Source: Arthrobacter sp. StoSoilB22
GTDB lineage: Bacteria > Actinomycetota > Actinomycetes > Actinomycetales > Micrococcaceae
NCBI RefSeq assembly: GCF_019977315.1
Contig: NZ_AP024652.1
Coordinates: 2,046,001-2,110,000, forward strand
Direction of reading: 5' to 3'
DNA length: 64,000 nucleotides
In this document: one piece after another, positions 22,356 through 42,882 of the stretch
How the letters are laid out: each line of letters begins with the position of its first letter
How positions within the stretch are numbered: the first letter of the stretch is position 1
The notes under the pieces: generated by a model
What the model was told of the DNA's origin: nothing
What the model saw: only the letters and a program-made list of their open reading frames with translations
The model's database searches: none
Translations under genes and position numbers: made by a program

Positions 22356-22589
22356 ATACAAGGTGCCTCCTCGTGTATTGCTAACTGAAGTTCGAACGGC
22401 CATCAATAAGCTCCGCCGCCGGCCACCTCGCGAACGCCGGTATCCCGCGAGCCACTGTCAGTCACCAGCCGGGGCGGGATAAGTTTCGGCACCTCATTGC
22501 CTGCCGTGTTTGTTCTGGAGACGATTCGGCCGTCTGAAGGTCATGGGCCGCAGGTAGCCACTGCGGGCCCATGACCGCCTTCAGGCCTG

Positions 22590-23378
22590 CTATTTCGAGC
22601 TGGGTCGTCCGGGGATATGGCTAAGAATGGACTTGGAGAAGCCGCCATCGACGCAAATATCCTGACCGGTGACGTAGCCGGATAGTGGGCTTACGAGAAA
22701 TTCGATCACGTTGGCGATGTCCATCGGATCTCCTATTCTTGCGAGAGGGATAATTTCCTCCCGTGCCTTCTTGATTTTGGGATCTTCATACATTTTTTCG
22801 GTCATCCGGGTATGGGTCATGCCGGGGGAGACTACGTTGACGCGGATGCCGTCGGGTGCCCATTCCAATGCCAGTGTCTGGGCCAACATTGTCAGCGCGG
22901 CCTTGCTTGGGCTGTAGGCACCGGATCCCGCGTGTGGTTGTTGACCTGACATTGACGAGGTGAAGCAGGCGGCGCCGTGGCTGTCCTTCAGGTGCTGGTA
23001 GCTTGCTTTGGCGAGAAGCCATGGGCCGCGCAGGTTGACGGAGAACATTGCGTCCCAGTCTTCAAGGGAGACGTCGCATATGGGTCCAGGGTTGGCGATT
23101 CCGGCATTGGCTACCAACGCGTCCAGGCCACCGAATTCTGCAACGGCAGCTTTGACCAGCTGGCTCGGCACGTTGGGGTCGCCGAAATCACCTGCCAGTG
23201 CGATGGCGGTGCCTCCCACAGCCTGGATTGAACGAACAACACGCTCTTGGCTGCTGTTTGATTCGTGTCCGCAGACTGCAATCATTGGCTGCTCCCCGCG
23301 CGCAAGGGCTGCCTCCGCGAGTCTCAGGGATGCTGCAGCGCCGATTCCGCTGCTTCCGCCACTGACCAAAGCCCTCAT
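22590..23378 (-). CDS. SDR-family NAD(P)-dependent oxidoreductase
   Basis: 262 residues. ALVSGGSSGIGAAASLRLAE (cofactor TGxxxGxG variant), ALVANAGIANPG (NAG motif), catalytic Ser in CFTSSMSG and YSPSKAA (YxxxK), then VNVVSPGMTHTRM and the C-terminal GYVTGQDICVDGGFS. Last gene of the minus-strand set MHS transporter - TIM isomerase - SDR (25862 to 22590), which I infer is under the LacI operator at 26042. Substrate likely a polyol or keto sugar. Confidence 0.9.
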   Translation of the reverse strand: MRALVSGGSSGIGAAASLRLAEAALARGEQPMIAVCGHESNSSQERVVRSIQAVGGTAIALAGDFGDPNVPSQLVKAAVAEFGGLDALVANAGIANPGPICDVSLEDWDAMFSVNLRGPWLLAKASYQHLKDSHGAACFTSSMSGQQPHAGSGAYSPSKAALTMLAQTLALEWAPDGIRVNVVSPGMTHTRMTEKMYEDPKIKKAREEIIPLARIGDPMDIANVIEFLVSPLSGYVTGQDICVDGGFSKSILSHIPGRPSSK

Positions 23379-23491
23379 TACACAAACTCCTCTTTCAGGT
23401 TTTTTCGCATTGATAAATTAGACCTCAATAATGCTGGTTTCTTCCGTGCTCGAATAAATTCTTGGTGGAGCCCGGTTTCCGGCGGAAGGAG

Positions 23492-24313
23492 TTAACTCTC
23501 CAGTTCCCATCCGTGGTTCTTGAGGTCCTGCATCGCTTTCGCAAATTCGTGGACTGGATTGTCCTCACGGATGATCTCCAGAACGACATTCCCGACGCCG
23601 CATGTGTCCTTGACGGCATCGCCCAGCCCAGCCCAGTCAATGACTCCCGTGCCGATGGGGTCGTGACCCCAAGTGTCCACGCCGGTGTCGGAAATGTGCA
23701 CCAGTCCGATGGCCTGGTGATGCTCCCGCAGACTGGCGACGGGATCTTCTCCGATGAAGGCGGCGTTGGCGACGTCGTAGACGATCTTGACAGAATCGTC
23801 GTTGATCGTGCTGACGACACCTGCCAAGTCCTGGATTGTGGGAGTGAAGCAGTAGGGGGTGTTTTCGAAGAGCAATCGTGTGCCAGCCTGCTTGGCCACC
23901 GGGATGAGACTTTCCAGGCTTTCATACATCCATGCGTGGACGCTTTCGAGCGAGGGCGAGATCATAGGACGGCGGGTGCCGGGGGAAATCACGACCTCAG
24001 CGACGTCCCAAGCGGCCGCCAAGTCAATTACCGACTTGATGTGATCAATACTTTTGCGGCGCATGCTGGCCCCGGGGCTGGCCAGGTTGATGTCATATCC
24101 GCCAGCGTTCAAGGACCGTATTTCCGCACCGTACCGGCTGAGCCTGTCTTGGATGGCCATGCGTTCGGAGGTTGCTAACTCATCCGGCCAGCAGTGCGGA
24201 GAACTGACTGGAACCTCGAACGTTTTGTAGCCGTTGTCGACAAGCTCGGCTATCGCATCGATCGCCGTCGCTGACCAAAGATATGAAAACGTATTGATAA
24301 TCATGCTGTTCAC
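23492..24313 (-). CDS. sugar phosphate isomerase/epimerase-type TIM barrel (AP endonuclease 2 fold)
   Basis: 273 residues. The xylose-isomerase-like barrel shows metal and active-site strands VVISPGTRRP, GTRLLFENTPYCF (Glu ligand), VKIVYDVANAAFIGEDP (Asp), GLVHISDTGVDTWGHDPIGT (His, Asp) and NVVLEIIRED (last Glu). These divalent-metal enzymes isomerise, epimerise or dehydrate keto sugars and cyclitols. Middle gene of the MHS-TIM-SDR set; about 113 bp before the SDR. Confidence 0.88.
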   Translation of the reverse strand: MNSMIINTFSYLWSATAIDAIAELVDNGYKTFEVPVSSPHCWPDELATSERMAIQDRLSRYGAEIRSLNAGGYDINLASPGASMRRKSIDHIKSVIDLAAAWDVAEVVISPGTRRPMISPSLESVHAWMYESLESLIPVAKQAGTRLLFENTPYCFTPTIQDLAGVVSTINDDSVKIVYDVANAAFIGEDPVASLREHHQAIGLVHISDTGVDTWGHDPIGTGVIDWAGLGDAVKDTCGVGNVVLEIIREDNPVHEFAKAMQDLKNHGWELES

Positions 24314-24431
24314 GTGTGAGAAGTCCTCTCAGTTCCGCGCCATGGAGAAAGAAGCTTCCCTTCATAACTCACTATAAATTCTGAGCTGCCGCGGAGCTGC
24401 GGCCGAACTGCCGCAGCTCCGAACCGACCGT

Positions 24432-25862
24432 CTATTTGGAGTGCCGGGAGACGTCGACCATCGAGGTCGTGCCCGAAACCAACTTTTCGCCTTCGAGTAC
24501 CTCAGGGTCTGCCAGTGCCACAGTGGAACGGTCACCGCGGTTGCCGGTCTCCGGCAGTGTGAAGTAGACGACAAGGCACAATGCGACGACGACGATCATG
24601 TAGACAGCGACGAGCATCGGCTGCCCGGCTCCGACAAATGCGGCAGCGATCAGAGGTGCGGTTCCACCAAAGACGGCAATCACGATCTGATGCGCGAAAC
24701 CGATGCCTGATACCCGGACGGAGGCCGGGAACAATTCGGCCTGGATGGTCGGATAGACCGACTGCCAGATGCCGAGAACTACCCACCCGGAGGCCGATAC
24801 CAGGACGTATACCCAGAATCCCGGCTGGTTGAGGAGCAGGAGCAAGGGGTAGAAGAGAACGATCATGCCGATGGCGCCGATGATTGGGAAGATTTTGCGC
24901 CGGCCGAGTCGATCAGAGAGTGCGCCGCATGTCGGCACGATAACCACCAGCAGGGCCAGCCCGATAACACTTCCGGCGAGTGTGGAGGAGAGGTCCCGGC
25001 CGCTGGTGAGTTTGGCGTACGTGGGAAGGAAGGTGGCCCAGGTGTAGTAGGCCACGGCTGGTGCGGAGAGTGCTGCTGCCTGAAGCAGGGCCTTCGGGTG
25101 CTCGCGAAGCAGATCCATCAGGCGCGCCGCAGCGGACTTCTGGTCGACAAGGGCTTCTGCTTCGAATTCGGGGGTCTCTTCAGCCCGGGCCCTCAGGATC
25201 AGGCCGACGATGCCGAGGAAGCCGCCCACAACGAAGGGGATGCGCCATCCCCATGCGGCGAGATCGGCGGTGGAGAACGATGACGTCACCATCGCTGCGG
25301 CGCCCGTAGCTGCCAGGGTTGCAAGGCCACTTGCCATATTGGTGAAGGAACCGAACAAGCCTCGCCTGTTCGCTGGAGCGTGTTCGACCATGAACGCGAT
25401 GGCACTTTGGCCCTCGCTGCCGGCCGAAATGCCCTGGATGACGCGGGCAACCAGGAAGAGGACGGGTGCCGCATAGCCGATGCTCGCAAATGATGGTGTG
25501 AGGCCGATGATGAGTGAGCCGAGCGCCATCCCGGACACGGATAGAGTCAGGATGAGCCGCCGTCCAAAACGATCAGCCAGTGGCGAGATGATGATGCCGC
25601 TAAGAGGCCGTACAACAAACCCGACGGCGTACGTCAGGAGTGCGGCGATCAGGGAGGCGAACGGGGAGTCGCTGGGGAATATCTGCGACGAGAATACCGC
25701 TGCGAGCAGGCCGTAGATGTACCAGTCGTACCACTCAACGAAGTGGCCGATCGTGCCTGCAATCAGGTTCAGGGTGCGGCGCGGATGTTTGGACGTTTCG
25801 GGACGCCCCGAAGTGTCGGGACTGCCGACTGCTTCTTTTGAGGTCTTCATTGAACTCTCCAT
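24432..25862 (-). CDS. MHS-family MFS transporter
   Basis: 476 residues, 12 membrane segments. TIGHFVEWYDWYIYGLLAAV, FVVRPLSGIIISPLADRFGR, LFLVARVIQGISAGSEGQSA and IQAELFPASVRVSGIGFAHQ are MHS marks. First gene of a three-gene minus-strand unit; the tandem LacI-type operator lies 180 bp upstream. Probably the H+-driven importer for the regulon's substrate, parallel to the ABC importer at 35.8-38.9 kb. Confidence 0.9.
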   Translation of the reverse strand: MESSMKTSKEAVGSPDTSGRPETSKHPRRTLNLIAGTIGHFVEWYDWYIYGLLAAVFSSQIFPSDSPFASLIAALLTYAVGFVVRPLSGIIISPLADRFGRRLILTLSVSGMALGSLIIGLTPSFASIGYAAPVLFLVARVIQGISAGSEGQSAIAFMVEHAPANRRGLFGSFTNMASGLATLAATGAAAMVTSSFSTADLAAWGWRIPFVVGGFLGIVGLILRARAEETPEFEAEALVDQKSAAARLMDLLREHPKALLQAAALSAPAVAYYTWATFLPTYAKLTSGRDLSSTLAGSVIGLALLVVIVPTCGALSDRLGRRKIFPIIGAIGMIVLFYPLLLLLNQPGFWVYVLVSASGWVVLGIWQSVYPTIQAELFPASVRVSGIGFAHQIVIAVFGGTAPLIAAAFVGAGQPMLVAVYMIVVVALCLVVYFTLPETGNRGDRSTVALADPEVLEGEKLVSGTTSMVDVSRHSK

Positions 25863-26041
25863 GTTTTCACGTTTAGCGCTGTGGTTATAGTGCTGGATCT
25901 GGGCACCTGGTGTGCGGGGCCGGGCCGCCTGTTAGTGCGTCCGACCGGTTGACGAAATGCCAGGGGAGGCGGCCGGTGCGGGGCGGGCGGCGCTGCTTGC
26001 CAATAAGCGAAGAAAGCTTTCACAAACCTCCAGGCTCCGAA

Positions 26042-26068
26042 TGAGATCGGTTGCTGAGATCGGTTGCA
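26042..26068. promoter_or_regulatory. tandem LacI-type operator, site pair a
   Basis: TGAGATCGGTTGC immediately followed by TGAGATCGGTTGCA. Each unit fits the LacI-family form TGnnAnCGnTnnCA with central CG. It lies upstream of the MHS-TIM-SDR genes. The same unit recurs at 27449-27475 and 39012-39068. Confidence 0.8.
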
Positions 26069-26162
26069 TTCAACAATACGGATGGAATGTGATCTTTGTC
26101 AATGCACAATAGCGACGTTTCGTCCCATGCCAACGCCACTCAGGGCCCGTCGCGAGGCTGCG

Positions 26163-26705
26163 TCAATCGAGGGAAAGCGGTGCCTCGTTGTCGAAGTCCT
26201 GAAACTCCACACCTGACCAGGTGCATTCGAGGCGGCCGTACGTGGCCCAGTAGTCATCCCAGTGTGCGAGCTTCCAGTTATCGCGCTCCAAAGCACGCTT
26301 GATGAGTCGCGAACGCAGGACGTCTTGGGGCACCCGGACTCGTATCACGGTGATCTCGGGAGAGGGCCAGTGGAAGTCATTTACCGCACGGGTCAGGTAG
26401 CCCGGATCGTCAAAATAGGCCCCGAAGGGGGCATCGAGGACTACGGAGCGGCCGAGGCGCAGGTTTACTCCTGCCACATCCATGAGGGTCTCGTACTCAA
26501 GGGGCAGCAGATTGGCGCGATAGTAGTCGTTTGACTCGCGGTCGGTTGGGTCATGCCCCGTGGCGGTCAGTGCGAATTCGACGAAGCGGCCGCTCACCCG
26601 GTCCTTGTCCAGGTAAGCCGCTTGATGCTTCTCAGCCGTTTGTTGCGCGATGGTTGTTTTCCCTGAGCCGGCTGGTCCAATGACGATGAAGACCTGGGGA
26701 GACAT
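26163..26705 (-). CDS. P-loop small-molecule kinase-like ATPase
   Basis: 180 residues. Walker A VIGPAGSGKTTIAQQTAEKH (residues 8-27), DKDRV after strand 2, SVVLDAPFG, and basic LID-like RSRLIKRALERDN. The layout is that of gluconate/shikimate-kinase-like P-loop kinases or AAA_33 proteins. It starts within TAATG at the end of the aldolase gene, so the two are coupled. A kinase producing the aldolase's phosphorylated substrate is the natural inference, but it is not the usual PfkB-type KDG kinase. Confidence 0.8.
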   Translation of the reverse strand: MSPQVFIVIGPAGSGKTTIAQQTAEKHQAAYLDKDRVSGRFVEFALTATGHDPTDRESNDYYRANLLPLEYETLMDVAGVNLRLGRSVVLDAPFGAYFDDPGYLTRAVNDFHWPSPEITVIRVRVPQDVLRSRLIKRALERDNWKLAHWDDYWATYGRLECTWSGVEFQDFDNEAPLSLD

Positions 26706-27352
26706 TATCCGCGTGCCTCTGCTACTGCTGCGAGGAAGGCTCGGGCTGCTTCGGTGACGCGGGTGAAGTCCCCGTCAGGCTGCCATGCCTTGGTAACGTA
26801 ACTGCCCACGCCGACGCCCGCCACGCCTGCGGCGAACCACTCGCCAACATTTTCCAGTGTGACGCCACCTGCAGGCATGATCGGCAGGTGCGCCAGAGGT
26901 GCGAGCACTGCCTTTGCGTAGGCCACCCCGCCGGCCTCGGTGGGGAAGAGCTTGAGGATGTCAGCTCCTGCCTCGGCGGACTCAACGAATTCCGTGGGTG
27001 TGAAGGCTCCGCTGATGGTTGGCACCTGATAGCGGTTCGCGGTCCGGATCATCGCAGGGTTCAACTGGGGGCTGACGAGGAACTCGGCGCCAGCGCGGAT
27101 GCATTCGTACGCGGAGTGCTCGTCAAGAACCGTTCCCGCACCAACCGCCACTCCGCTTGGTCCATGCTTTGCGGCCAGGCGCCGGATCACCTCGACGGCC
27201 CCGGGAATCGACAGGGTGATCTCCAATGCCCGGAAGCCACCCTCGATGGCAGCCTCCGCGACCTTCTCGGCAACCTCGGCGCTCTCAAGCCGCACAATAA
27301 GGACAGCACCGGACTCGTCGATGGTCTGCAGGGTACGAAGTTTCTTATTCAT
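26705..27352 (-). CDS. KDPG/KHG-family (2-keto-3-deoxy-6-phosphogluconate type) aldolase
   Basis: 215 residues from ATG 27352 (MNKKLRTL, behind GAGAGAGG). The in-frame start at 27466 would run through the operator and is rejected. Class I aldolase marks: AVLIVRLES, ALEITLSIPGA (catalytic Glu), VGAGTVLDEHSAYECIRAGA, LVSPQLNPAMI, ADILKLFPTEAGG with the Schiff-base Lys, and MPAGGVTLENVGEWFAAG. It cleaves a 2-keto-3-deoxy sugar acid (phosphate) to pyruvate and an aldehyde. The operator pair at 27449 stands between it and the divergent Gfo operon. Confidence 0.9.
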   Translation of the reverse strand: MNKKLRTLQTIDESGAVLIVRLESAEVAEKVAEAAIEGGFRALEITLSIPGAVEVIRRLAAKHGPSGVAVGAGTVLDEHSAYECIRAGAEFLVSPQLNPAMIRTANRYQVPTISGAFTPTEFVESAEAGADILKLFPTEAGGVAYAKAVLAPLAHLPIMPAGGVTLENVGEWFAAGVAGVGVGSYVTKAWQPDGDFTRVTEAARAFLAAVAEARG

Positions 27353-27448
27353 GATGGCCTCTCTCTGGCCGGGTGGCTCTTTTGCTCCAGCCAAACCCGG
27401 CTCTATTGATGTTTCGTTGACAAACTCTCCCACCATCCATAGTGTTAT

Positions 27449-27475
27449 TGCAACCGATCTCAGCAACCGATCTCA
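27449..27475. promoter_or_regulatory. tandem LacI-type operator, site pair b, divergent promoter
   Basis: TGCAACCGATCTCA followed by GCAACCGATCTCA, the reverse complement of the pair at 26042. It sits between the aldolase-kinase unit (minus) and the nine-gene plus-strand unit that contains the LacI gene, so autoregulation is expected. Confidence 0.85.
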
Positions 27476-27487
27476 TACAAGGGGGTA

Positions 27488-28480
27488 TTGCGGTTGACTA
27501 AAGTACGAACAATTATTCTTGGTGCATCCCATTGGCATGTTCCACTCTGCGCACAGGCCATGGCCGAAGAACACGACATGATCGCAGTAGGCGACGATGA
27601 TGTCTCCCGTGTGCAGGTGCAGAAACTGGCAGACGGCTGGGGAGCGCCGGTTGAAGCTGACTGGCAGAAACTGGTGGATTTGCCCGACGTCGGACTCGCC
27701 TATGTGTTTGGTCCCCACGAGGGAATGGCAGAAAAGTGCATGGCCCTGATCGAGCGGAAAATTCCGTTCGTCGTGGAAAAGCCATTGGGCACCTCCCTTG
27801 GCGAGCTGGCCACCGTGCGTCAGGCCGCCGAAGCAGCTGGCGTACCGGCCACGGTGCCCCTGGTGCAGCGTGGCGGCCCGACGGACCAATGGCTCGCCAA
27901 GGCAGGCCGGCCAAGTTATCAACGGTCCTCGTTCATTGCTGGTCCGCCATCCCGGTACCTCCACAATGCCAATCCCTGGATGCTCGATCCTTCCAAGGCT
28001 GGGGGAGGCTGCCTGGCCAACCTGGCCCCTCATTTTGTTGACCTGTTTCTACGGGGCACCGGCGAATCAGAGCTGCAGGTGCAATCCCGGCTCTCATCGG
28101 TTCTTCACGGCCAGGATATTGAGGATCACGCAAGCCTTATCCTCACTACGCCCGAGGGCCGCGAAACCATCGTGGAAGTCGGCTACGCATTCCCGGGCTC
28201 GCCGCTGAAGCGGTACTGCAGCTTCACATCGGTCGGCGAAGCGGGATTTGCCGCCGTTGATTCCGACGGCACAGCTACTTTCACGTCGACGGACGGCACC
28301 ACGGTAGTCGACAAGATTAATGTCGACAGCGACCCACTCTACGATCCTTTTGTCAGAAGTGTCGCCCGGACGCTGGAAGATGGATTCCAGGGCCTGACAA
28401 CGCTGGCCCAGCTCGAAGATGTCATGCGCCCCATTTGGCAGGCCTATGACGATCAGCACGGAGGAAGGGAACATGCCTGA
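27488..28480 (+). CDS. Gfo/Idh/MocA-family oxidoreductase
   Basis: 330 residues, TTG start at 27488 (a second TTG at 27494 is equally possible). N-terminal Rossmann IILGASHWHVPLCAQAMAEE, then DVGLAYVFGPHEGMAEKCMA and the family signature VVEKPLGTSLGELA (EKP with the catalytic-zone Lys). C-terminal alpha/beta domain with GGGCLANLAPHFVDLFL (the GxxxDxxxH equivalent, catalytic His). First gene of the operon; its stop overlaps the LacI start. Confidence 0.85.
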   Translation: MRLTKVRTIILGASHWHVPLCAQAMAEEHDMIAVGDDDVSRVQVQKLADGWGAPVEADWQKLVDLPDVGLAYVFGPHEGMAEKCMALIERKIPFVVEKPLGTSLGELATVRQAAEAAGVPATVPLVQRGGPTDQWLAKAGRPSYQRSSFIAGPPSRYLHNANPWMLDPSKAGGGCLANLAPHFVDLFLRGTGESELQVQSRLSSVLHGQDIEDHASLILTTPEGRETIVEVGYAFPGSPLKRYCSFTSVGEAGFAAVDSDGTATFTSTDGTTVVDKINVDSDPLYDPFVRSVARTLEDGFQGLTTLAQLEDVMRPIWQAYDDQHGGREHA

Positions 28481-29468
28481 CTTGAGTATCGACGTCGTCG
28501 CTAAAGCCGCCGGGGTTCACCGGTCAACGGTCTCCCGGGCGTTCTCACGCCCTGAGGCAGTGAAGAGTGAAACGCGCGAGCATATCCTTCGGGTCGCCGA
28601 GGGACTTGGCTACACCATGAGTCCGCTGGCACAGGCGCTTCGTCGCAAGACCAGCAACATCATCCCTCTGATCGTTCCTGACATTACGAACCCGTTCTTC
28701 GCGGAACTTGCCAAGACGATGACACAAGCAGCTGACGAGCGCGGCTACCAACTCATGCTCTGCGTCACCAACGGCGACCCTGCCAAATCCGACGGTTACT
28801 TCACGGCCATGCAGGCGATGTACGCCCCGTTCGGGATTGTGGCCCCCTCCACAAAGGTCGATACCGAGGCGCTGAAGCGATTTGCCTTCGGCCACAGGGT
28901 CGTGGTGATTGACCGCGTGGAAGGCGACGACTCCGTTCCAACGGTTACCGTCGACAGCCGCAAAGGAATCATGCTGGCGTTGGATCACCTGCATTCCCTG
29001 GGGCATACCTCGATCGGATACGTATCCGGTATCGCCGGGACACACACGGCCCAGGACCGGATGGACGCCTATCTGGAGCTCACCGCCCAAAGCGGCAGCA
29101 CACCTGTGGTGCTCGACAGCGGGTCAGACCTCGATGCGGGCACGCGCGGTGCGGAGCATTTCCTGGCTATGGACCATCCACCCACAGCGATCATTGCAGC
29201 CAACGACATGGTGGCTTTCGCGGTGATTTCGGCGCTCGGGCGAAGTGGCCTTCGGGTACCGGAAGACGTGTCGGTCATCGGGTTCGATGGGCTCGCCCTA
29301 GGTGCCCGCTTCAACCCACCACTGACAACTGTGCGGCAGCCAATCGCAGACATGGGACACATCGCCATCGAACTGGCTGAAAAACAAAATGTTGACGGTT
29401 CCGTGGACCATATCGTCCTCGAACCCGAACTTCTGGTCCGCGGCTCCACCTCGGAGCTCCGCAAATGA
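28473..29468 (+). CDS. LacI/GalR-family transcriptional regulator of the catabolic regulon
   Basis: 331 residues from ATG 28473 behind GAGGAAGGG. HTH: IDVVAKAAGVHRSTVSRAFS, hinge helix LAQALRRKTSN, then IIPLIVPDITNPFFAELAKT, IGYVSGIAGTHTAQDRMDAY, TAIIAANDMVAFAVISALGR and VSVIGFDGLALGARFNPPLT. Complete, no defects. Seven matching 14/13-bp operators in three promoters of this cluster make it the obvious regulator; the inducer is presumably the pathway substrate or an early product. Confidence 0.92.
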   Translation: MPDLSIDVVAKAAGVHRSTVSRAFSRPEAVKSETREHILRVAEGLGYTMSPLAQALRRKTSNIIPLIVPDITNPFFAELAKTMTQAADERGYQLMLCVTNGDPAKSDGYFTAMQAMYAPFGIVAPSTKVDTEALKRFAFGHRVVVIDRVEGDDSVPTVTVDSRKGIMLALDHLHSLGHTSIGYVSGIAGTHTAQDRMDAYLELTAQSGSTPVVLDSGSDLDAGTRGAEHFLAMDHPPTAIIAANDMVAFAVISALGRSGLRVPEDVSVIGFDGLALGARFNPPLTTVRQPIADMGHIAIELAEKQNVDGSVDHIVLEPELLVRGSTSELRK

Positions 29469-30031
29469 GCGGGGCGCAGGAGCAGAGGCTTCGGCGCCTG
29501 CCGGGGCTCCAGCACACGGACCACGTCGGTTTGACGGTTCCCAACCTTGAAGAAGGCATTCGCTTCTTCGTAGACGTTCTTGGAGCAGAAGAGTTATACC
29601 GCTCCGAACGCGGGCCGGACGAAGAGTTCATGCCCACGAACTTTGAAGTCCCGGCAGATGCCAAGCTCACGCTCGCCATGTTGCGGCTGCCACCGAATCT
29701 CAATATCGAGCTTTTCGAGTGGAGCAGTGCTGAGCGGCGGGAGACGCCACCGAGGCATTGCGACGCCGGAGGGCACCACCTGTGCTTCGTTGTGGATGAC
29801 GTCGATGAAGCCATTGCCGTGCTGCAGGAGACGCCTGGAGTACGTGTGCTCGGTGAGCGCAAGGAAGTTGCCGGCGATAGCCCGCGCGTAGCCGGCAACC
29901 GCTGGACCTATTTCGTAACCCCTTGGGGCCTGCTGATGGAAATCGTGGATCGATCCCGCGTCCCGGCCCCTCCCCGGCTGGTCGGTCCCACGGACTGGAC
30001 AGCACCTCCAAACACTTCAGAAAGGACATAG
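29465..30031 (+). CDS. VOC-family (glyoxalase/dioxygenase fold) protein
   Basis: 188 residues, overlapping the LacI stop by 4 bp. LQHTDHVGLTVPNLEEGIRF (metal His of the first beta-alpha-beta module), LNIELFEW (Glu), GGHHLCFVVDDVDEAIAVLQ (second module His) and WTYFVTPWGLLMEIVDRS (second Glu). All four metal ligands appear present, so it is probably a metal-dependent isomerase, epimerase, lyase or dioxygenase. Reaction unknown. Confidence 0.82.
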   Translation: MSGAQEQRLRRLPGLQHTDHVGLTVPNLEEGIRFFVDVLGAEELYRSERGPDEEFMPTNFEVPADAKLTLAMLRLPPNLNIELFEWSSAERRETPPRHCDAGGHHLCFVVDDVDEAIAVLQETPGVRVLGERKEVAGDSPRVAGNRWTYFVTPWGLLMEIVDRSRVPAPPRLVGPTDWTAPPNTSERT

Positions 30032-30035
30032 AACA

Positions 30036-30935: not shown

Positions 30936-31927
30936 TGAACACCAACCGCCTCCGCGTCGGAGTTATCGGCGCCGGCAACATCGCCACCATCGCGCAACTG
31001 CCCACCCTCGTCCAACGGGACGACGTCGAGTTGGCCGCCTTGGTCTCCCGGCGCGAAGATCCCAGCAGCCTGGTGCGGCGCTGGGGCTTCAACGCCGCCT
31101 ACAAGACAGTGGAGGAGATGCTGGCCGCGCAGGAACTGGATGCAGTGTTCGTGCTGACCCCGCGCTCCGAGCACGCCCACGCCGTCGAGCTTTGCCTCAA
31201 CCGCGACGTGGACGTGTTCTGCGAGAAACCGCTTGCCCCAGCGACAGATGAGGCAGAACATCTGGCAGACCTCGCCGACGAGCGGGGACGGATACTCATG
31301 GTTGACTTCAATCGGCGCTATGCACCCGTCTACACGGCCGGCCGGGAGGCTTTTGGCGACAAAGGCGCCACCTTCTGCGTAGCTCAGAAGAACCGCCCTG
31401 GATCCGAATACCGTGCAACGTTCGAGAACGCCATCCACATGGTCGATCTCCTGCGCTGGTACTGCGGGGGCGAACCTGAGCACGTGGCCGCCCACGCTGC
31501 TGGTGAAGATCCTTGGGAAGAAGACGGAATCGCAGCGACTATCCGCTTCAGCACCGGTAACACCGGTGTCCTGATGGCAGCCCGAACAGCGGGAGCATGG
31601 AACGAGAAACTGGACGCCTACGGTGACGGGAAGACCGTCGAAGTCAGGGCGCCCGAAACAGTTTCCACCACCATCAACGGCGTCACTACCTCACGGGAAC
31701 TCAGCGCCGAAGCGTATGGCTGGGCTACTGCGACAGACACCCTCGGATTCTCAGCCGCCGTTCACCATTTCCTTGACCGGGTGGCCGACAGGGCCCAGCC
31801 GCTGACTTCAGGCCGCGAAGCAGTACGCACCCAGCGCCTGCTGGACCAGATCCTCGCCGCGGCCGGCCTGCCCACAGAGGAGCAAACGGGGCGCGAATGG
31901 GCGAGCCACGCAGTCAACGCAAGCTGA
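30935..31927 (+). CDS. Gfo/Idh/MocA-family oxidoreductase
   Basis: 330 residues. RVGVIGAGNIATIAQLPTLV (GxGxxA Rossmann), DAVFVLTPRSEHAHAVELCL, VDVFCEKPLAPATDEAEHLA (EKP), GRILMVDFNRRYAPVYTAGR, then FENAIHMVDLLRWYCG with the conserved DxxxH-type helix read here as IHMVDLLRW. Second of three oxidoreductases of the family in the operon; they probably act at different positions of a ring or oxidise and re-reduce the same position. Confidence 0.88.
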   Translation: MNTNRLRVGVIGAGNIATIAQLPTLVQRDDVELAALVSRREDPSSLVRRWGFNAAYKTVEEMLAAQELDAVFVLTPRSEHAHAVELCLNRDVDVFCEKPLAPATDEAEHLADLADERGRILMVDFNRRYAPVYTAGREAFGDKGATFCVAQKNRPGSEYRATFENAIHMVDLLRWYCGGEPEHVAAHAAGEDPWEEDGIAATIRFSTGNTGVLMAARTAGAWNEKLDAYGDGKTVEVRAPETVSTTINGVTTSRELSAEAYGWATATDTLGFSAAVHHFLDRVADRAQPLTSGREAVRTQRLLDQILAAAGLPTEEQTGREWASHAVNAS

Positions 31928-31955
31928 ATCTTTACTCACGTAAGGAGGTGTCACC

Positions 31956-33242
31956 ATCGCTCTCCTTCGTGCTCGTAGGGATGCATCGGATGTCTTCGGA
32001 GCGGGGAAGCGGCCACTTCGTGGGCGTTTCACCGCCCTTGCCGGCATCCTGCTGGTTGCTTTTAGCGCTCGCGAAGCGGTTTCGGCGGCGTCTCCGCTCT
32101 TGGGCCGAATTGGCACGGACCTTCCCTTTGACGCCCTGACCACAGGAATTCTCGGAATGCTGCCGACCGCCAGCTTCGCAGTGGTGGGCTTCGCTGCCCT
32201 TCCGCTCCTGCGGCGCCTCCAGCTGGAGCACCTCCTGGTGATTGCGATCCTGCTAACTACATTGGGTCAGCTAGGCCGCGCAGTGGGATGGAATGTCCTG
32301 GCATTCCTGGTGTTCACCTGTGTCGCCATGCTCGGGATTGGTCTGGTCAATGTCGTGGCTCCACCTCTCCTGGCGAAGTACTTCCCAGACAGAATCGGGC
32401 TTCTCGCAGCGATCCACGTCACACTCCTGGGTGTCAGCACGGCAGTGGCCGCCCAATTCGCCATTCCCTTGGACGCTCTTTATGGCTGGCGTTTCTCCAT
32501 CGGTATCTGGGCTGCCCTCAGCGCGTTGGCTGCGGTCCCGTGGCTGATTCTTCTTGTGGCCAGAAGGACCGCCGTTGCCCGCTCGGGGGACTATGCAGCG
32601 GAGGGCAGGCAGTTGCCTTCTGCGAATGGAGTCAGACCGTGGCGATCAGCTATCGGCTGGGGCACAGCATTGGTTTTTGCTGGTTGTTCCAGCAATACTT
32701 TTGCGGCGCTCACTTGGCTCCCGGCTGTCCTCGTTGACAGAGGACTGAGCCAGGAAACTGCCGGATCCATGCTGGCGCTCTATTCAATTCTTGCTCTGCC
32801 GGTCGCTTTGATTGTGCCCATGGTTGTTGTGAGGATGTCCCGGCCACTACCTGTTGCCGTCCTGTTTGTCGTAGCTTTCGCCTTAGGCTACGGCGGAATC
32901 ATGATGGCGCCGCCAGCTTCGGCAGCCTTGTGGGTCGTCATTGCCGGGCTGGGCCAGGGCGCCTATTCCTTTGCATTCATCATGATCAATAAGCGAACAC
33001 GAACGCAGTCCGGTTCAGGAAGTCTGTCTGCGTTTTCCCAAGGAACCGGCTATGCCCTCGCAAGCGTCGGCCCGTTCCTTTTCGCGCTCCTGCACACTCC
33101 CGGGGATGGTTGGCTGCCCTCGTTCGGCATGCTCGGTGTCTGGCTCCTGGTGCTTGTGGCAGGGGCCATCATGGTCAACAAACCACGCATGCTTGAAGAC
33201 ACCACAGTCTGGTGCCGCCGTTCCAAGCAACCGATTCACTAA
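31956..33242 (+). CDS. CynX/NimT-family MFS transporter with an unusual (ATC) apparent start
   Basis: About 428 residues if started at 31956. The family N-terminus is clearly coded upstream of the first usual start: RFTALAGILLVAFSAREAVS and AASPLLGRIGTDLP match TM1 of the CynX group (compare the R after TM1). A perfect AAGGAGGTG stands seven bases before ATC at 31956; no ATG, GTG or TTG occurs in this phase between the stop at 31941 and TTG at 32100. Other marks: TCVAMLGIGLVNVVAPPLLA, LLGVSTAVAAQFAIPLDALY. Starting at 32100 would remove TM1. Imports or exports a pathway compound. Confidence 0.78.
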   Translation: MALLRARRDASDVFGAGKRPLRGRFTALAGILLVAFSAREAVSAASPLLGRIGTDLPFDALTTGILGMLPTASFAVVGFAALPLLRRLQLEHLLVIAILLTTLGQLGRAVGWNVLAFLVFTCVAMLGIGLVNVVAPPLLAKYFPDRIGLLAAIHVTLLGVSTAVAAQFAIPLDALYGWRFSIGIWAALSALAAVPWLILLVARRTAVARSGDYAAEGRQLPSANGVRPWRSAIGWGTALVFAGCSSNTFAALTWLPAVLVDRGLSQETAGSMLALYSILALPVALIVPMVVVRMSRPLPVAVLFVVAFALGYGGIMMAPPASAALWVVIAGLGQGAYSFAFIMINKRTRTQSGSGSLSAFSQGTGYALASVGPFLFALLHTPGDGWLPSFGMLGVWLLVLVAGAIMVNKPRMLEDTTVWCRRSKQPIH

Positions 33243-33271
33243 TTTCCGAACCAACTCAAAGGAGAGATTAC

Positions 33272-34306
33272 ATGAGCACCGCTTATGGCCCTGGGCCTGA
33301 TCTTTGCGCCTCCGACATCATGACGACGGCGACACGGCCCCCGCGCGTCGCCGTGGTGGGCGCGGCCGGGTGGGCAGGATCCCGTCATGCCCGGGCTTTC
33401 GCCCAGGTGGGCGCCAACGTCACCCACCTTGTGGAGAAGGACGAACGGGCGGTTTCATTGGCTGACGAGCTGGGCGCGCGCGTGGTGCCCGGCATCCAGG
33501 ACCTTCATTCTGATCAACTGGACTTGGTCGTCGTCGCGCTACCCACCACTCTGCAACCGGAAATCTGTGCAGATTTGCTGAACAGGGGATTCCGGGTGCT
33601 GACGGAAAAGCCCGTGGCGGCAGATACAGCAGGTGCCGCCGTCGTGTCCGCCGCCACAGGAGTGAACGAACGACTCATGGTGGGGTATACACTCCATCAG
33701 CACCCCGCCGTCGAACTCCTTTCCGAGTGGATCCGAGACAACGACGTGATCGCTGTCAACGTTCGATCGGTCGCCCACAAGGAGACCATCGACTCATGGC
33801 GCGCTGATCCGGGTGAGGGCGGCGTTGCGGTGGTAAACGGCATTCATGCCATCGAACTGGTCTCTTCGTGGTTCGAGGGTGACCCAAAAGTCCTTGCCAC
33901 AAGCGTCAGCAGCAGCCTGTACGGGTCTCCGGTACCGGAACACGTCCTTTCCACGCTCGAATTCCCGTCTGGCGTGGTGTTCACTCTGCAGACTTACTGG
34001 TCTCCCTGGCAGGAACCCCAAGGGCTCAACCAGGGAGATTGGAGCCTCACCGTGGATGTTCTGGCCACTGGCGGCCGTATGTTGTGGTCAAACGATTCCC
34101 TTCACGTGTGGAACCGTGACGGCGGACAACAGGAGAAAAACTTCGAGCCCTCGGACCTCTTCCTGCGCCAGGCAGCAGCAGCCGTGAGGTTCTGCAGGGG
34201 TGACGCGCCTGCCGTTACGTTTGCCCAGGCGCTCCGCGCCACGGAAATCGCCGACGCCGTTCAGGCGGCCTCGGCCTCCGGCGCTCCGGAGGTGCCAGCC
34301 CCCTAA
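33272..34306 (+). CDS. Gfo/Idh/MocA-family oxidoreductase
   Basis: 344 residues from ATG 33272 (AAAGGAGAG before it). After ~22 extra residues: RVAVVGAAGWAGSRHARAFA, DLVVVALPTTLQPEICADLL, FRVLTEKPVAADTAGAAVVS (EKP), LMVGYTLHQHPAVELLSEWI, and GEGGVAVVNGIHAIELVSSW with the conserved His in the NGxHxxEL helix. Third family member of the operon. Confidence 0.86.
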   Translation: MSTAYGPGPDLCASDIMTTATRPPRVAVVGAAGWAGSRHARAFAQVGANVTHLVEKDERAVSLADELGARVVPGIQDLHSDQLDLVVVALPTTLQPEICADLLNRGFRVLTEKPVAADTAGAAVVSAATGVNERLMVGYTLHQHPAVELLSEWIRDNDVIAVNVRSVAHKETIDSWRADPGEGGVAVVNGIHAIELVSSWFEGDPKVLATSVSSSLYGSPVPEHVLSTLEFPSGVVFTLQTYWSPWQEPQGLNQGDWSLTVDVLATGGRMLWSNDSLHVWNRDGGQQEKNFEPSDLFLRQAAAAVRFCRGDAPAVTFAQALRATEIADAVQAASASGAPEVPAP

Positions 34307-34365
34307 GCACCAATCGAACCGATCGAAGGTCGACCCGCCGAACCGAGCATTATCGAGTAAGGAAA

Positions 34366-34446
34366 ATGAACATGAAACCAGCACCTCACACTCCGACCGC
34401 ACGAGCACTGCGCTCGAGCTGCACCCGGAACGGAGAGAACCGATGA
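34366..34446 (+). CDS. 26-residue reading frame overlapping the SDR start (leader peptide candidate)
   Basis: ATG 34366 has TAAGGAAA before it and the stop overlaps the start of the SDR gene (ATGA). The peptide is basic, with several Pro, Thr and Arg (MNMKPAPHTPTARALRSSCT...). It may serve translational coupling; no stem-loop pair typical of attenuators is evident. Confidence 0.3.
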   Translation: MNMKPAPHTPTARALRSSCTRNGENR

Positions 34447-35192
34447 GCCTCAAAGACCAAGTGGTCCTGGTAACCGGATCAAGCGGAGGAATCGGCGACG
34501 CCGCGGTCACCGCACTCATAGCCGCCGGAGCCAGGGTCATCGGCGCCGATCGTTCACCCAAAGAGGACCAGTCCTTGGAGGCGTTTTACCCCCTCGACAT
34601 CACCTCGGAACAACAATGCGCTACGGTCATCCAGGACATCCAAGCCCAACACGGCCGTGTTGATGTCCTCATCCATGCAGCAGGAGTGCTCGGCCCCACC
34701 CCGGACATCATGGAAACAACCACCGAAGAGTTCGACTCCATCCTGAGGATCAACGCCACCGCGACCTTCACCATGGTCCGGGAGACCGCAAAATCCATGC
34801 TTGAGACCGGCACGGCCGGCTCCATCGTGGTCCTGTCCTCAGTTGCGGCCAAAGAATCACGCCTCAACTACCTGCCCTACAACGCGAGCAAGCTCGCCGT
34901 CCTCCACATCATGTGGTCCTTTGCCGAACTGCTCGGACCCAATGGAATCTCTGTAAACGCGATCGCACCAGGACCGGTGAACACACCCATGTGGGCACAA
35001 TTTGCCCGGGATTCCGGTCCGGACGCTGCAGCCAACCGAGCGAAGAGGGCAGCGCAGCTGCCGATGCGCCGGTTCGCTGAACCCGATGAAGTAGCCCGGG
35101 CCATCCTGTTCCTTTCAGATCCCGACAACCGCTACATCACGGGGGTGTCCTTGGACGTGGCCGGCGGGGCACATCTGGGAATAGGAACCTGA
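34443..35192 (+). CDS. SDR-family oxidoreductase
   Basis: 249 residues from ATG 34443 behind GGAGAGAAC. VVLVTGSSGGIGDAAVTALI (TGxxxGxG), DVLIHAAGVLGP, SIVVLSSVAAKESRLNYLPY and NASKLAVLHI (Ser, YxxxK), VNAIAPGPVNTPMWAQFARD and the C-terminal YITGVSLDVAGGAHLG. The D after strand 2 (IGADRS) suggests NAD. Eighth gene of the plus-strand operon. Confidence 0.9.
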   Translation: MSLKDQVVLVTGSSGGIGDAAVTALIAAGARVIGADRSPKEDQSLEAFYPLDITSEQQCATVIQDIQAQHGRVDVLIHAAGVLGPTPDIMETTTEEFDSILRINATATFTMVRETAKSMLETGTAGSIVVLSSVAAKESRLNYLPYNASKLAVLHIMWSFAELLGPNGISVNAIAPGPVNTPMWAQFARDSGPDAAANRAKRAAQLPMRRFAEPDEVARAILFLSDPDNRYITGVSLDVAGGAHLGIGT

Positions 35193-35237
35193 AACACCCG
35201 ACAGAGACGGGTCCCTGACCTACGAAGGAGACACTTA

Positions 35238-35690
35238 ATGCGACATCACCACACTGCCCTGCACGTCACGGATATGGAGCAGAGCGAGCGATTCTACGTG
35301 GATGGCCTCGGACTGGCCCGTTTGGATGCCTGGACGTCGGGACCATATATCGGAGAACTTTACGGCCGTCCTGACGTGACCGTCAGAGCCATGCTTCTCG
35401 CTACCGGCGACGGATCCTTCAGGCTGGAACTGGCACATGCCGAGCCGCTATTGCCAGCAGTCGATCCATCACGGGCGCAACCGGGCACAGCTCACCTGGC
35501 CTTTACAGACATTGACGTTCGAGAGGTTTACGCCAGGATGACGGCGCTTGGTTACAGCGCGGTATCCGAACCCGTTGCCCCGACCTCGGGCCCCATTGCC
35601 GGCGGGTGGTTGGTTTACCTCCTCGATCCTGACGGAAATCGCGTTGAGTTGATTCAGCCGCCAGAATGGCGCCCAAGCCAGGACACGTAA
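35238..35690 (+). CDS. VOC-family protein
   Basis: 150 residues, AAGGAGACAC before ATG 35238. MRHHHTALHVTDMEQSERFY (His ligand), GSFRLELAHAEPL (Glu), GTAHLAFTDIDVREVYARMT (His) and GWLVYLLDPDGNRVELIQPP (Glu). A complete type I VOC dimer subunit. Last gene of the plus-strand operon, followed by a terminator. Confidence 0.86.
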   Translation: MRHHHTALHVTDMEQSERFYVDGLGLARLDAWTSGPYIGELYGRPDVTVRAMLLATGDGSFRLELAHAEPLLPAVDPSRAQPGTAHLAFTDIDVREVYARMTALGYSAVSEPVAPTSGPIAGGWLVYLLDPDGNRVELIQPPEWRPSQDT

Positions 35691-35708
35691 GTCGCTCGCT
35701 GGCAGAGA

Positions 35709-35755
35709 AGCAGGCCCCGTGAGCCGTCGGTGACGGTCACAGGGCCTGCTTTTTG
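35709..35755. terminator. terminator between convergent operons
   Basis: GCAGGCCC (35710-35717) pairs with GGGCCTGC (35742-35749) followed by TTTTTG on the plus strand; on the minus strand it can also end the ABC operon, though with few T. Confidence 0.8.
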
Positions 35756-35792
35756 TATGTTGCGGGAGAGTGCGGCGGATTGGTGCGCCGGG

Positions 35793-36653
35793 TTACCCCT
35801 TGACACCACCGGAGGTCATGCCGGCCACAAACCAGCGCTGGAATGCCAGGAAGATTGAGAGAACAGGGATGAAGGCAACGACGATGAATGCGGCGAAGAG
35901 TCCCCAGAAGCTCCCGAAGCCTGTGGTTATGTATCGCACTATGCCGTTCTGGACTGTTTTCATGTCTTCTGTGGTGGCCAGTACAGTGCCGACAAGGAAG
36001 TCATTCCAGACGAAGACGAAGATGAAGATGGCCACGGCGGCGATACCGGGGCGGATGAGCGGGAGAATGATCCGCCACAAGATCTGCATGCGGGAGCAGC
36101 CATCGATGGCCGCCGCTTCCTCTATTTCGACGGGTATGTTCTCAATGAAATTTCGTAGAAACAGGATGGTTTGTCCGCAAATGATTGCCGTGTAGACGAT
36201 GATCATCATGGGGTAGGTGTTGATCAAGGCGGTTTTGACGAACATGGAGTACAGCGCGATAAAGACCACGATCGCCGGGACCATGGACAGGACCAGAATC
36301 CCAGTCATCAGAGTTTCCATGCGGCGGCTCCGATACCTTGTGGCTACATACGCTGCAGGGATGCAAATGGCCAGAGCAAGAACGATCGAGCCGCCAGCAT
36401 AAATGAGGGAGTTTGCGAAAAAGCGGATGTTGGTCGAGGTCAGAAGGCCGACATATCCCTCGGATGAGAATGGGGCCGGTATCCATCTTGGCGGGAATTC
36501 CAGTGTGCCTGAACCGGTCTTGAGTGACGTGGACACAATCCATGCGACCGGGGGGAGTACCACCGCTGCGGAGAGGATGATGTACGCCCAAGCCGGAACG
36601 GCCTTAATGAAACTGGCCAGGCGTCGTTGGCGGCGCGGAGTTGTGATGCTCAC
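35793..36653 (-). CDS. carbohydrate ABC transporter permease, MalG type
   Basis: 286 residues, six membrane segments. The permease EAA loop is EIEEAAAIDGCSRMQILWRI (conserved EAAxxDGaxxxxxxxxIxlP). The N-terminus is basic (TTPRRQRRLASF) before TM1. Its start overlaps the stop of the partner permease by 4 bp. Works with the partner, the lipoprotein at 37638 and an ATPase not found in this window, probably a shared MsmK-type ATPase. Confidence 0.92.
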   Translation of the reverse strand: MSITTPRRQRRLASFIKAVPAWAYIILSAAVVLPPVAWIVSTSLKTGSGTLEFPPRWIPAPFSSEGYVGLLTSTNIRFFANSLIYAGGSIVLALAICIPAAYVATRYRSRRMETLMTGILVLSMVPAIVVFIALYSMFVKTALINTYPMMIIVYTAIICGQTILFLRNFIENIPVEIEEAAAIDGCSRMQILWRIILPLIRPGIAAVAIFIFVFVWNDFLVGTVLATTEDMKTVQNGIVRYITTGFGSFWGLFAAFIVVAFIPVLSIFLAFQRWFVAGMTSGGVKG

Positions 36654-37582
36654 AAGCTTTCCTTCCGTCGGAAGCGAATGGCGACGAGGGTCAGGGCGAT
36701 ATTGACGGCGAATAGCAGGATTGCCGTTGCTGAGGCTCCCGAGAGGTCAAACTTGTCGAACATCTGGTTGTAGACCCGCATGGACAAGGTTTCTGTAGAC
36801 CCGATGGGGCCTCCTCGTGTGGTGACGAGGATGATGGTGACCATCTGCACATAGAGCATGAGAAGGACGATCACGACGGAGACGATGGTGTTGCGCAAGT
36901 AGGGCAGCGTGATGTTCACGAACTGGTGCCAGATGCCGCCGCCGTCCATTTTGAGGCTTTCCCGGAGCTCCTCCGGAATCGTTTGAAGGGCGCCCAGGAA
37001 GAGGAGCATGGCTTGCGGATAGGACCACCAGGCTGTCATGAGAGTTACTGCAACCAACGCACTGGTGGGAGATGAGAACACGTCAGTGGGACCGAACCCG
37101 AGGGACTTGGTGATCGCTGATGCCGGACCATAGTTGGGGTTGAGGAACCAGAGCCAGATTGTTCCTGCAGTGGCCTGTGACATCAACCAAGGCAGGAGGA
37201 AGAGGCTCCGGACCGAACGCTTGAAGCGGTGGAGGTTGTTGAGCACGATGGCAGAAAGCAGCCCCGCCGGGAGTGCGATAACCAAGGCTCCGAGCGAGAA
37301 AACCAAGGTTGTCCAGATGCGGCTTGGCAGATCGGAGTCTGAGAACAATCGGACAAAGGAATTCAGTCCCGAGAATTTGCCAATCTGGTAATACGACGTC
37401 TCGTGTAGGGCCGTCCACGCTGTGTAGATGAGCGGCCCCACGAACACAAAGAGGAAGACGGCGCTGACTGGCAGGACGTAGAGCCATACCATTCGATCCC
37501 GACGGACCCGGCGAAAACTTGGGGCGCCCAAGGGAGACGTTGCGGTATTGCGTGGGCTGCGGGTGGGGCTTTCGGTTGACAT
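36650..37582 (-). CDS. carbohydrate ABC transporter permease, MalF type
   Basis: 310 residues, six membrane segments after a 30-residue cytoplasmic leader. VWLYVLPVSAVFLFVFVGPL is TM1; the EAA loop is PEELRESLKMDGGGIWHQFV; and FNLVIS-like end segment ILLFAVNIALTLVAIRF. About 55 bp behind the lipoprotein gene, overlapping MalG-type gene. Confidence 0.92.
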   Translation of the reverse strand: MSTESPTRSPRNTATSPLGAPSFRRVRRDRMVWLYVLPVSAVFLFVFVGPLIYTAWTALHETSYYQIGKFSGLNSFVRLFSDSDLPSRIWTTLVFSLGALVIALPAGLLSAIVLNNLHRFKRSVRSLFLLPWLMSQATAGTIWLWFLNPNYGPASAITKSLGFGPTDVFSSPTSALVAVTLMTAWWSYPQAMLLFLGALQTIPEELRESLKMDGGGIWHQFVNITLPYLRNTIVSVVIVLLMLYVQMVTIILVTTRGGPIGSTETLSMRVYNQMFDKFDLSGASATAILLFAVNIALTLVAIRFRRKESL

Positions 37583-37637
37583 TATCTGTCCCTTCCAGGG
37601 GGAGCCTGATTTCCCAGACTCCCCCTATTTCGGGCGG

Positions 37638-38894
37638 CTACTTCTTGTTGGCCGCGTCCTGGGCGGAACGAATAAAGTCGCTGCCTGATGAGCCGTTGAG
37701 AGTCAGCTTCTGCCCGGCTTGGGAGAGGCCAGTGGCAAGCGCGGTCCATGTGTTGGAATACGTGCGTGGTTCACTGTTGGTCTTGACGTAGGCCGCGATG
37801 TCGTTGACGGTCTTGGCCTCTGGAGTGGAGAAGAACGGTTGCTGGTAGGTGGCGGCACGGGTGGGTACCTCACCGCCGGTTGCCATCAGCGCACCGGCTT
37901 CCGGCCCGGTCATGTACTCGATAAACTTCCAGGCAGCTTCGGTGTTTTTACTGCCGTTTCCGATGCCCAAGGTCCATCCAATGGTTGTCCCTGTCGTGTC
38001 GCCGGTACTCGCCATCGGCAGGGCCGTCCACTTGAGGTCCTTGTTCTGCGAGCCGAAGGAAACCGCTCGTTCTGTGCCCAGGACCGCCATCGCGACAGTG
38101 CCGCTCGCCATGCCGTCAGCTACCGTGCCGTACGTGTCAGAAACGACGTTGCTACCAAGAGCCTTTGCGTCCCTGAGCTTGGCCAGGAAGTCACCGAACT
38201 CGTTGCCTTTGGCTGTCGCGAAATCAGCTTGACCATCCTTGTTCCAGATTTCCTGATCCACCTGGGACATGAAGCAGTTAAAGAAGGTACTGATGATGGC
38301 CGAGTTATCTGTGTCCGAAAAGCCCGTCCCGAATCCGGTAAAGCCAGCGGCAGCAGCCTTCTTGGCAACTTCAACAACCTCGTTGTATGTGGTCGGGACG
38401 GTCGCGCCGATCTGGCTAAGGATCTTTTGGTTGTAGTACAGGGCACAGGTTCGGTATTCGTACGGCACGGCAACCGGCTTGCCGTCGGGCCCCGCAAGAG
38501 TGTCGGTGGGACGAAGCCAATCAGTTACCTTCGAGGCGGCTTCAGGCAGAGGGGAGTAGACGCCGGCAGATGCCATCTGCGGAACGACGGGAGTGAACAT
38601 CTTGAAGACATCAGGGGCCTGACCTGCTGCCGCTGCCTGAGGCAGTCTGTTCAACATGTCGCCCAACGAAACGACGGAGAGGTTGATCTTGATGTCCGGG
38701 TTGGCCGCCTCAAACTTGGCAATGTTTTCCTTCAGTGCCTTTGAACGCGGATTAGCCTGGCTGGGATCGAGGAAGTCCCAGTAGTTCAGAGTCACGGGAC
38801 CTTTGGGTTCCGAAGCTGACGGTGAACAGCCACTGAGGGCAAGGCCGGCCACAACGGCTGTTACGAGCGCCAAGCCCCATCGCTTTTTGATCAT
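37638..38894 (-). CDS. ABC transporter sugar-binding lipoprotein (family 1)
   Basis: 418 residues from ATG 38894 (AGGAGAAAC before it; the in-frame 38933 start has no site). Signal MIKKRWGLALVTAVVAGLAL and lipobox LSGC give a lipoprotein anchored outside the membrane. VTLNYWDFLDPSQANPRSKA and APDVFKMFTPVVPQMASAGV are typical of COG1653 binders, as is the WKFIEYMTGPEAGALMATGG region. First gene of the ABC operon, whose promoter carries three operator units. Confidence 0.92.
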   Translation of the reverse strand: MIKKRWGLALVTAVVAGLALSGCSPSASEPKGPVTLNYWDFLDPSQANPRSKALKENIAKFEAANPDIKINLSVVSLGDMLNRLPQAAAAGQAPDVFKMFTPVVPQMASAGVYSPLPEAASKVTDWLRPTDTLAGPDGKPVAVPYEYRTCALYYNQKILSQIGATVPTTYNEVVEVAKKAAAAGFTGFGTGFSDTDNSAIISTFFNCFMSQVDQEIWNKDGQADFATAKGNEFGDFLAKLRDAKALGSNVVSDTYGTVADGMASGTVAMAVLGTERAVSFGSQNKDLKWTALPMASTGDTTGTTIGWTLGIGNGSKNTEAAWKFIEYMTGPEAGALMATGGEVPTRAATYQQPFFSTPEAKTVNDIAAYVKTNSEPRTYSNTWTALATGLSQAGQKLTLNGSSGSDFIRSAQDAANKK

Positions 38895-39335
38895 GAGTTT
38901 CTCCTGTGAATGGGTGTGCTGATGTGGGAGCATGCCGTGCTCAAGCGACGCGTGCTAAATGCGGGACTTCGACGGTGGGGAGAATCCGATTGGTTCATCG
39001 AATCTCTCCTTTGAGATCGGTTGCATTTTCAGAAATAGAACTGAGATCGGTTGCTGAGATCGGTTGCACTAAATTTAGGGCCGCGGGATGGCTCTGTCAA
39101 GGAAAGATTCGATATGGATCTGGAACGGACTACCCCGGCTCAATCTGGGCTGCCGTTACCCATGGCACGGGACGTCACCTTCCTGATCAACACCGTTGGC
39201 ATCAGGATTGAATAGGGCGCCTTGCCGACGTGCAGAAGTTCCAGCCGGAAGTGCCGTCACCCATGGTGAGCATCGGGGCTCTGACCTGGGATCCTCCGCC
39301 TGCCGTCGATCCGTCAGGGGAGGCCACTGCGGGCC
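38895..39335. other. promoter region of the ABC operon plus possible decayed coding sequence
   Basis: The left part carries the operators at 39012-39068. Between about 39163 and 39354 two short frames look coding (MARDVTFLINTVGIRIE and, in another phase, VQKFQPEVPSPMVSIGALTW) and the second overlaps the end of sdaA; they may be the tail of a lost gene. Confidence 0.4.
39012..39068. promoter_or_regulatory. LacI-type operators, site group c (one single, one tandem pair)
   Basis: TGAGATCGGTTGCA at 39012-39025, then the tandem TGAGATCGGTTGC/TGAGATCGGTTGCA at 39042-39068, about 120-175 bp upstream of the binding-protein start. The single copy shows that the 14-bp unit, not the tandem, is the basic site. 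Confidence 0.85.
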
Positions 39336-42780: not shown

Positions 42781-42882
42781 AGACAACAGAATATCCACGA
42801 AAAGCTGCAATTTCATCAAGTGGAAACACGGAACTTCCATGATGTTGTGATCCCGTTCACTTCTCATCACATCGGAGCGCAC

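Follow-up and report, generated by a model that had tools for sequence, protein, structure and literature searches.

We analysed a 64,000-nucleotide stretch of the genome of Arthrobacter sp. StoSoilB22 (hereafter the window), in which one gene cluster carries repeated copies of a 14-base-pair (bp) operator, TGAGATCGGTTGCW. As a whole, the results are best explained by a 331-residue LacI-family protein, encoded at 28473–29468 within the cluster, which probably acts as a local repressor through pairs of these operators, set at a 13-bp pitch at the promoters. The sites, their exclusivity, their register with the promoters and their conservation with the LacI gene are features of the sequence itself. 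Binding of the sites by this LacI is very likely, and repression by it is nearly as likely.

Exact copies of TGAGATCGGTTGCW start in the window at positions 26042, 26055, 27449, 27462, 39012, 39042 and 39055, those at 27449 and 27462 being matches on the minus strand. A sequence-only reading of the window had listed seven copies and had seen the motif nowhere else in the 64 kb. The exact pattern search bears out both statements, and the second extends to the whole 4.55-Mb genome (one contig, 4,554,426 bases), where the same seven copies are the only ones, compared to none for a reversed-pattern control and about 0.07 expected by chance at equal base frequencies. Allowing R at position 9 together with one mismatch still returns only these seven (one match in the control). 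All of them sit at three promoters of one gene cluster, and the genome scan for the 14-mer that the earlier reading had proposed thus reveals no scattering over unrelated promoters. For the 27-base pair of units, a search with up to three mismatches returns no more than three sites in the genome, and a generic LacI-type 13-bp tandem pattern matches these three pairs and nothing else. It should be pointed out that only the exact copies are remarkable in the window. Loose matches of a single 14-mer are not distinctive there, with 10 found at up to three mismatches versus 6.25 expected.

The unit, which can be written TGCAACC/GATCTCA, is in the form TGAGATCGGTTGCA an imperfect 14-bp palindrome with a central CG. 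It has in this respect the form of LacI-family operators, which are even palindromes with a central CG and lengths of 16–22 (PMC4052901). Two neighbouring 14-mers of a pair have one base pair in common. The operators and the predicted promoters are the following:

26042–26068, minus strand: operator pair of the MHS-TIM-SDR unit, in which base 26055 belongs to both 14-bp units
26073–26102, minus strand: predicted promoter of the MHS unit (TTGACA, 18 bp, TATTGT), ending 4 bp before the pair
27417–27445, plus strand: predicted promoter of the Gfo-LacI operon (TTGACA, 17 bp, TAGTGT), ending 3 bp before the pair
27449–27475, plus strand: operator pair between the aldolase-kinase unit (minus strand) and the Gfo-LacI operon (plus strand), facing the Gfo promoter
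33226–33238, plus strand: decayed single operator unit AGCAACCGATTCA, lacking one base, before the third Gfo gene (Gfo3)
39012–39025, minus strand: third operator of the ABC importer, a single unit whose start is 30 bp from that of the nearer unit of the pair
39042–39068, minus strand: operator pair of the ABC importer
39072–39100, minus strand: predicted promoter of the ABC importer (TTGACA, 17 bp, TAAATT), ending 3 bp before the pair

The operators had earlier been assigned to the promoters of the MHS-TIM-SDR unit, the divergent aldolase-kinase and Gfo-LacI genes, and the ABC importer. Promoter-like elements are indeed found for MHS, Gfo-LacI and ABC. Each pair faces one promoter, however, and none could be identified on the aldolase side, where a minus-strand promoter for the aldolase-kinase unit was sought by eye without a convincing candidate. 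A promoter scan of 22400–39400 gave five sites compared to a shuffle mean of 4.4, that is, no excess, and its two best sites (10 of 12) adjoin the MHS and ABC operator pairs. The Gfo-LacI promoter is absent from the scan output and was identified by eye.

A scan of genome contigs yielded 38 loci with orthologues of the LacI protein (63–98% identical), from Arthrobacter-type genera, Sinomonas, Rathayibacter, Nonomuraea, an Intrasporangiaceae metagenome-assembled genome and Amycolatopsis. All 38 hold 13-bp arrays of the unit. With up to two mismatches per unit, these loci and the window contain 86 arrays (83 pairs and three triples, 75 of the arrays being distinct), distributed over 39 of 39 sequences, and every one of the 89 unit-to-unit intervals shorter than 26 bp is exactly 13 bp. 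When three mismatches are allowed, 13+13 triples appear in 8 of the 38 loci, two of the eight coming from one genome. Adjacent sites about 13 bp apart are conserved in this orthologous group. A third site lies 26–32 bp away at 16 of 73 distinct clusters, the distance being 30–32 bp at the importers and 26–28 bp before MHS.

The place of the arrays relative to the promoter elements is nearly constant. TTGACA begins 32, 33 or 34 bp upstream of 73 of the 75 distinct arrays. The two exceptions are at L047, which is truncated at the edge of the retrieved sequence, and at L059, where one more unit, with three mismatches, precedes the counted ones. TANNNT ends 3–4 bp upstream of the array in 74 of the 75, and the promoter is at the TGCAAC end of the array in all 73 cases with TTGACA. 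Because the −35- and −10-like elements end just upstream of the arrays, the pairs would cover the predicted transcription start. The distance from array to coding region varies widely. This anchoring to the promoter elements, and not to the beginning of the coding region, agrees with a repressor that blocks RNA polymerase where transcription starts. The genes downstream of the 86 arrays are Gfo1, the first gene of the LacI operon (38 arrays), MHS (34), the solute-binding protein (8) and Gfo3 (5), with none found in one case, and the aldolase gene is divergent within 400 bp at 37 of the 86.

We have also compared the distribution of the pair with that of the regulator. The pair is present in nine genomes of a family sample of 295. 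A second sample comprises 395 genomes and, judging from the genome numbering, we take it to include the smaller one; 19 of the 395 have this LacI at E≤1e-60, and those that fall within the 295-genome sample are the same nine that have the pair. In 18 of the 19 genomes, some of which are the same contigs as loci among the 38, the retrieved sequence near the LacI gene contains a 13-bp pair (units with up to three mismatches). A phylum-wide search for the LacI at E≤1e-70 returned only the window's own genome among 396, and the more distant orthologues used here are therefore those of the contig scan and of the family search. In 198 phylum genomes the generic 13-bp tandem pattern gave, beyond the three pairs discussed here, a single match apiece in three genomes, where the units are dissimilar, and no match in the reversed control. 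A 14-bp version of it matched once in each of three phylum genomes, with control matches in two. Since the generic pattern matched so few of the 198 genomes, the strict-consensus 13-bp tandem layout is not general in the phylum.

The product of 28473–29468 matches PF00356 with 38.9 bits (cut-off 27) and PF13377 with 118.2 bits (cut-off 26.5), and is by these matches a LacI-family transcription factor, with a predicted N-terminal helix-turn-helix (HTH) and a periplasmic-binding-protein-like core. Its best relative is CcpA in the PDB scan and RbsR in the NCBIfam scan. All 18 NCBIfam matches are below the curated cut-offs, the best having 177.6 of 382 bits, and no named subfamily therefore applies. 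The recognition region GVHRSTVSRAFS is shared unchanged by nine of ten orthologues inspected, the tenth (L059) having K for R. The clusters of Nonomuraea and Amycolatopsis have a different gene order, with a pair before MHS and the aldolase-kinase genes diverging. The near-invariant recognition helix and the movement of the operator with the genes in such rearranged clusters, together with genome-wide exclusivity and conservation with the LacI gene across families, argue for a LacI regulon, and the assignment of the operator to this LacI appears well supported. The earlier description of a complete LacI regulon is thus supported as far as the regulon is concerned, while the word complete needs a caveat, in view of the decayed unit before Gfo3.

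Two further observations concern these loci. The rearranged Nonomuraea cluster contains an IS4/5-type transposase (L060, 14354–15196). Three genomes have two copies each of the LacI cluster (L032/L040, L038/L046 and L039/L042), both with the same operator arrays, which means that two paralogous repressors would share one operator.

In the mechanism that we propose, each 14-bp unit would be the site of one dimer of the 28473–29468 product. At each promoter, two such sites would be fused at the 13-bp pitch, with one base pair in common, 3–4 bp after the −10 element. Two dimers about a quarter turn apart would then cover the transcription start and the early transcribed region and exclude RNA polymerase, until an inducer derived from the pathway releases them. 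The LacI operon would in this scheme be autoregulated.

The sequence-only reading had argued that two dimers could hardly bind a pair both at once. This is not supported by a coarse helical model, built from head and core dimensions and without coordinates, in which the second dimer at a 13-bp pitch is turned by 73–99 degrees and the heads are ca 25–33 Å apart. At a 12-bp pitch the model sets the heads 15–23 Å apart, where they should clash, and at 14 bp they are 33–41 Å apart. A pitch of 13 bp would accordingly be about the tightest spacing without a clash, with the heads near contact. Two dimers side by side is the mechanism that we prefer for the pair, and we lean slightly towards both units being occupied at the same time and cooperatively, whether by contact between the DNA-binding heads or by distortion of the DNA. 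More tentatively, the 13-bp pitch might be a helical assembly rule, by which neighbouring LacI-family dimers, about a quarter turn from one another, dock head to head and the row can grow from pair to triple as a cooperative array.

A number of points weigh against the proposed explanation, the coarseness of the model being one of them. Ravcheev et al. (PMC4052901) hold that dimers 13 bp apart cannot interact, and suggest instead a binding mode with partial unwinding; the helical assembly rule, if true, would contradict this published view. The arrays are 0.977–0.986 identical by promoter group, compared to 0.29–0.50 in the 60 bp downstream and 0.30–0.41 further upstream, beyond the 36-bp promoter stretch, but these figures are partly selected, the arrays having been found by consensus similarity, and identity is also 0.50–0.79 over the 36-bp stretch upstream that runs from −35 to −10. 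The genomes are related, so that the nine-of-nine match between pair and LacI does not represent nine independent events. In the remaining one of the 19 genomes with this LacI (L081), where the LacI is 60% identical, the units are 12 bp apart (421–446), and this locus is a natural counter-example to the 13-bp rule if its second unit is functional. In both Sinomonas loci (L056 and L057) MHS is preceded by one unit only. Upstream of Gfo3, a lone unit is seen in two relatives (L026 and L027), and weak units 16–17 bp apart in three others (L036, L037 and L040).

In five relatives the Gfo3 arrays are intact pairs, while the window has the decayed unit there. The Gfo3 position across the relatives, with its decayed, single, weak and intact forms, amounts to a small series in which an operator is gained or lost. 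At L059, a lone unit precedes Gfo1, and an array is located at the start of importer genes further upstream.

Another option considered was that only one dimer occupies a pair at a time, the overlapping alternatives raising the local site density and the on-rate without ever being co-bound. The units of a pair do overlap by a base pair, single units are found at some promoters, and Ravcheev et al. (PMC4052901) argue that the overlap of such sites reaches deep into the region of specific contacts. However, the present 14-bp units have no more than their outermost base pair in common, and site density alone should tolerate other spacings, whereas the intervals below 26 bp are without exception 13 bp and 13+13 triples exist. 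We consider this option unlikely. An improbable one is that a LacI tetramer holds the pair, as the sequence-only reading had suggested, or loops it to a third site or between promoters. Third sites at 16 of the 73 distinct clusters and three promoters within ca 13 kb could be seen as suited to looping. E. coli LacI carries a C-terminal tetramer helix. This 360-residue protein aligns with the regulator only up to its residue 307, opposite residue 305 of 331, and because the alignment ends this close to the C-terminus, the regulator would have no room for such a helix. By length and alignment it thus appears to have no LacI-type extension, and its orthologues are of similar size (328–336 residues in 56 fetched sequences, some from the same genomes twice). 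Tetramer binding at 13 bp is also hard to square with the structures, according to Ravcheev et al. (PMC4052901).

That another regulator of the genome, and not the neighbouring LacI, binds the sites is very improbable, given that the pair and this LacI share one set of nine genomes in the family sample and that there is no close second HTH: the genome has 12 HTH matches, and the 11 besides the query are at most 49% identical. Finally, the repeat could work in RNA, as a leader element at the transcript 5′ end, and its place at the predicted transcription start, in one orientation relative to it, would be compatible with this. We give this explanation the least credence of all, since the place of the array is tied to the promoter elements instead of the coding start, and the unit shows the CG-centred palindromic form of LacI sites (PMC4052901).

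The proposed arrangement of side-by-side dimers can be compared with known systems. The 13-bp layout is already known for the LacI family, and the present regulon is a new and unusually regular instance of it. Intersite distances of LacI-family factors peak at 13, 22 and 32 bp, and overlapping sites ca 13 bp apart occur upstream of 110 operons, without a settled explanation (Ravcheev et al. 2014, PMC4052901); the experimental case cited there is E. coli GntR at gntKU. The sites described here resemble those in being CG-centred LacI-family palindromes at the same distance, conserved in an orthologous group. They differ in that the recognisable unit is 14 bp with one common base pair, compared to palindromes of 16–22 nucleotides (nt), that 13-bp arrays are present at all 38 loci fetched, and that triples occur. 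The third sites of the importers are near the 32-bp peak, while those before MHS are not.

In the case of CodY (PMC10415144), two dimers bind overlapping sites, rotated by 60 degrees and 30 Å apart, and touch via their DNA-binding domains, and the cooperativity is lost when the overlap is shortened. The likeness lies in a pair of dimers whose sites overlap and which are rotated relative to each other along the helix. For CodY there is a solved structure, with an exact overlap as a requirement for cooperativity (6 nt of 15-nt sites), and the protein family is unrelated; in the present case the arrangement is inferred only. Within the LacI family, CytR is able to use direct repeats, with variable half-site spacing and together with CRP (PMC3454398); here, whole palindromic sites stand at a fixed pitch. 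The letters of the motif were not found in the literature searched, and a search for this type of cluster also gave nothing.

LacI is a textbook repressor family, yet the 13-bp spacing between some of its operators was noted in 2014 without an explanation (PMC4052901). The present regulon offers near-invariant pairs, natural triples, singles and one 12-bp variant beside a small, apparently dimeric repressor, which puts the spacing question within direct reach of experiment. In addition, the set of operators is a pointer to the genes that are induced together in an uncharacterised sugar-type catabolic pathway of soil actinobacteria. The genes of the cluster are the following:

22590–25862, minus strand: SDR dehydrogenase, TIM-barrel protein and MHS-type transporter (metabolite/H+ symporter)
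26163–27352, minus strand: P-loop (AAA_33) kinase and KDPG-type aldolase, divergent from the Gfo operon
27488–28480, plus strand: Gfo/Idh/MocA oxidoreductase, first gene of the LacI operon
28473–29468, plus strand: LacI-family regulator, 331 residues, with the recognition region given above
29465–31927, plus strand: VOC protein, TIM-barrel protein (AP_endonuc_2) and second Gfo/Idh/MocA oxidoreductase, the rest of the conserved operon
32100–35690, plus strand: MFS, Gfo, SDR and VOC proteins
35793–38933, minus strand: ABC importer, with two permeases and a solute-binding protein

As to the substrate, PDB and NCBIfam scans of the cluster proteins gave family-level matches only, and literature text searches did not identify the pathway. 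Among them, the NCBIfam models for levoglucosan and inositol dehydrogenases were matched far below cut-off. Elsewhere in the window, 41776–43263 encodes a protein with two AsnC-type HTH matches and a match to the Lrp/AsnC ligand domain, which adjoins a LysR regulator and an L-serine dehydratase gene.

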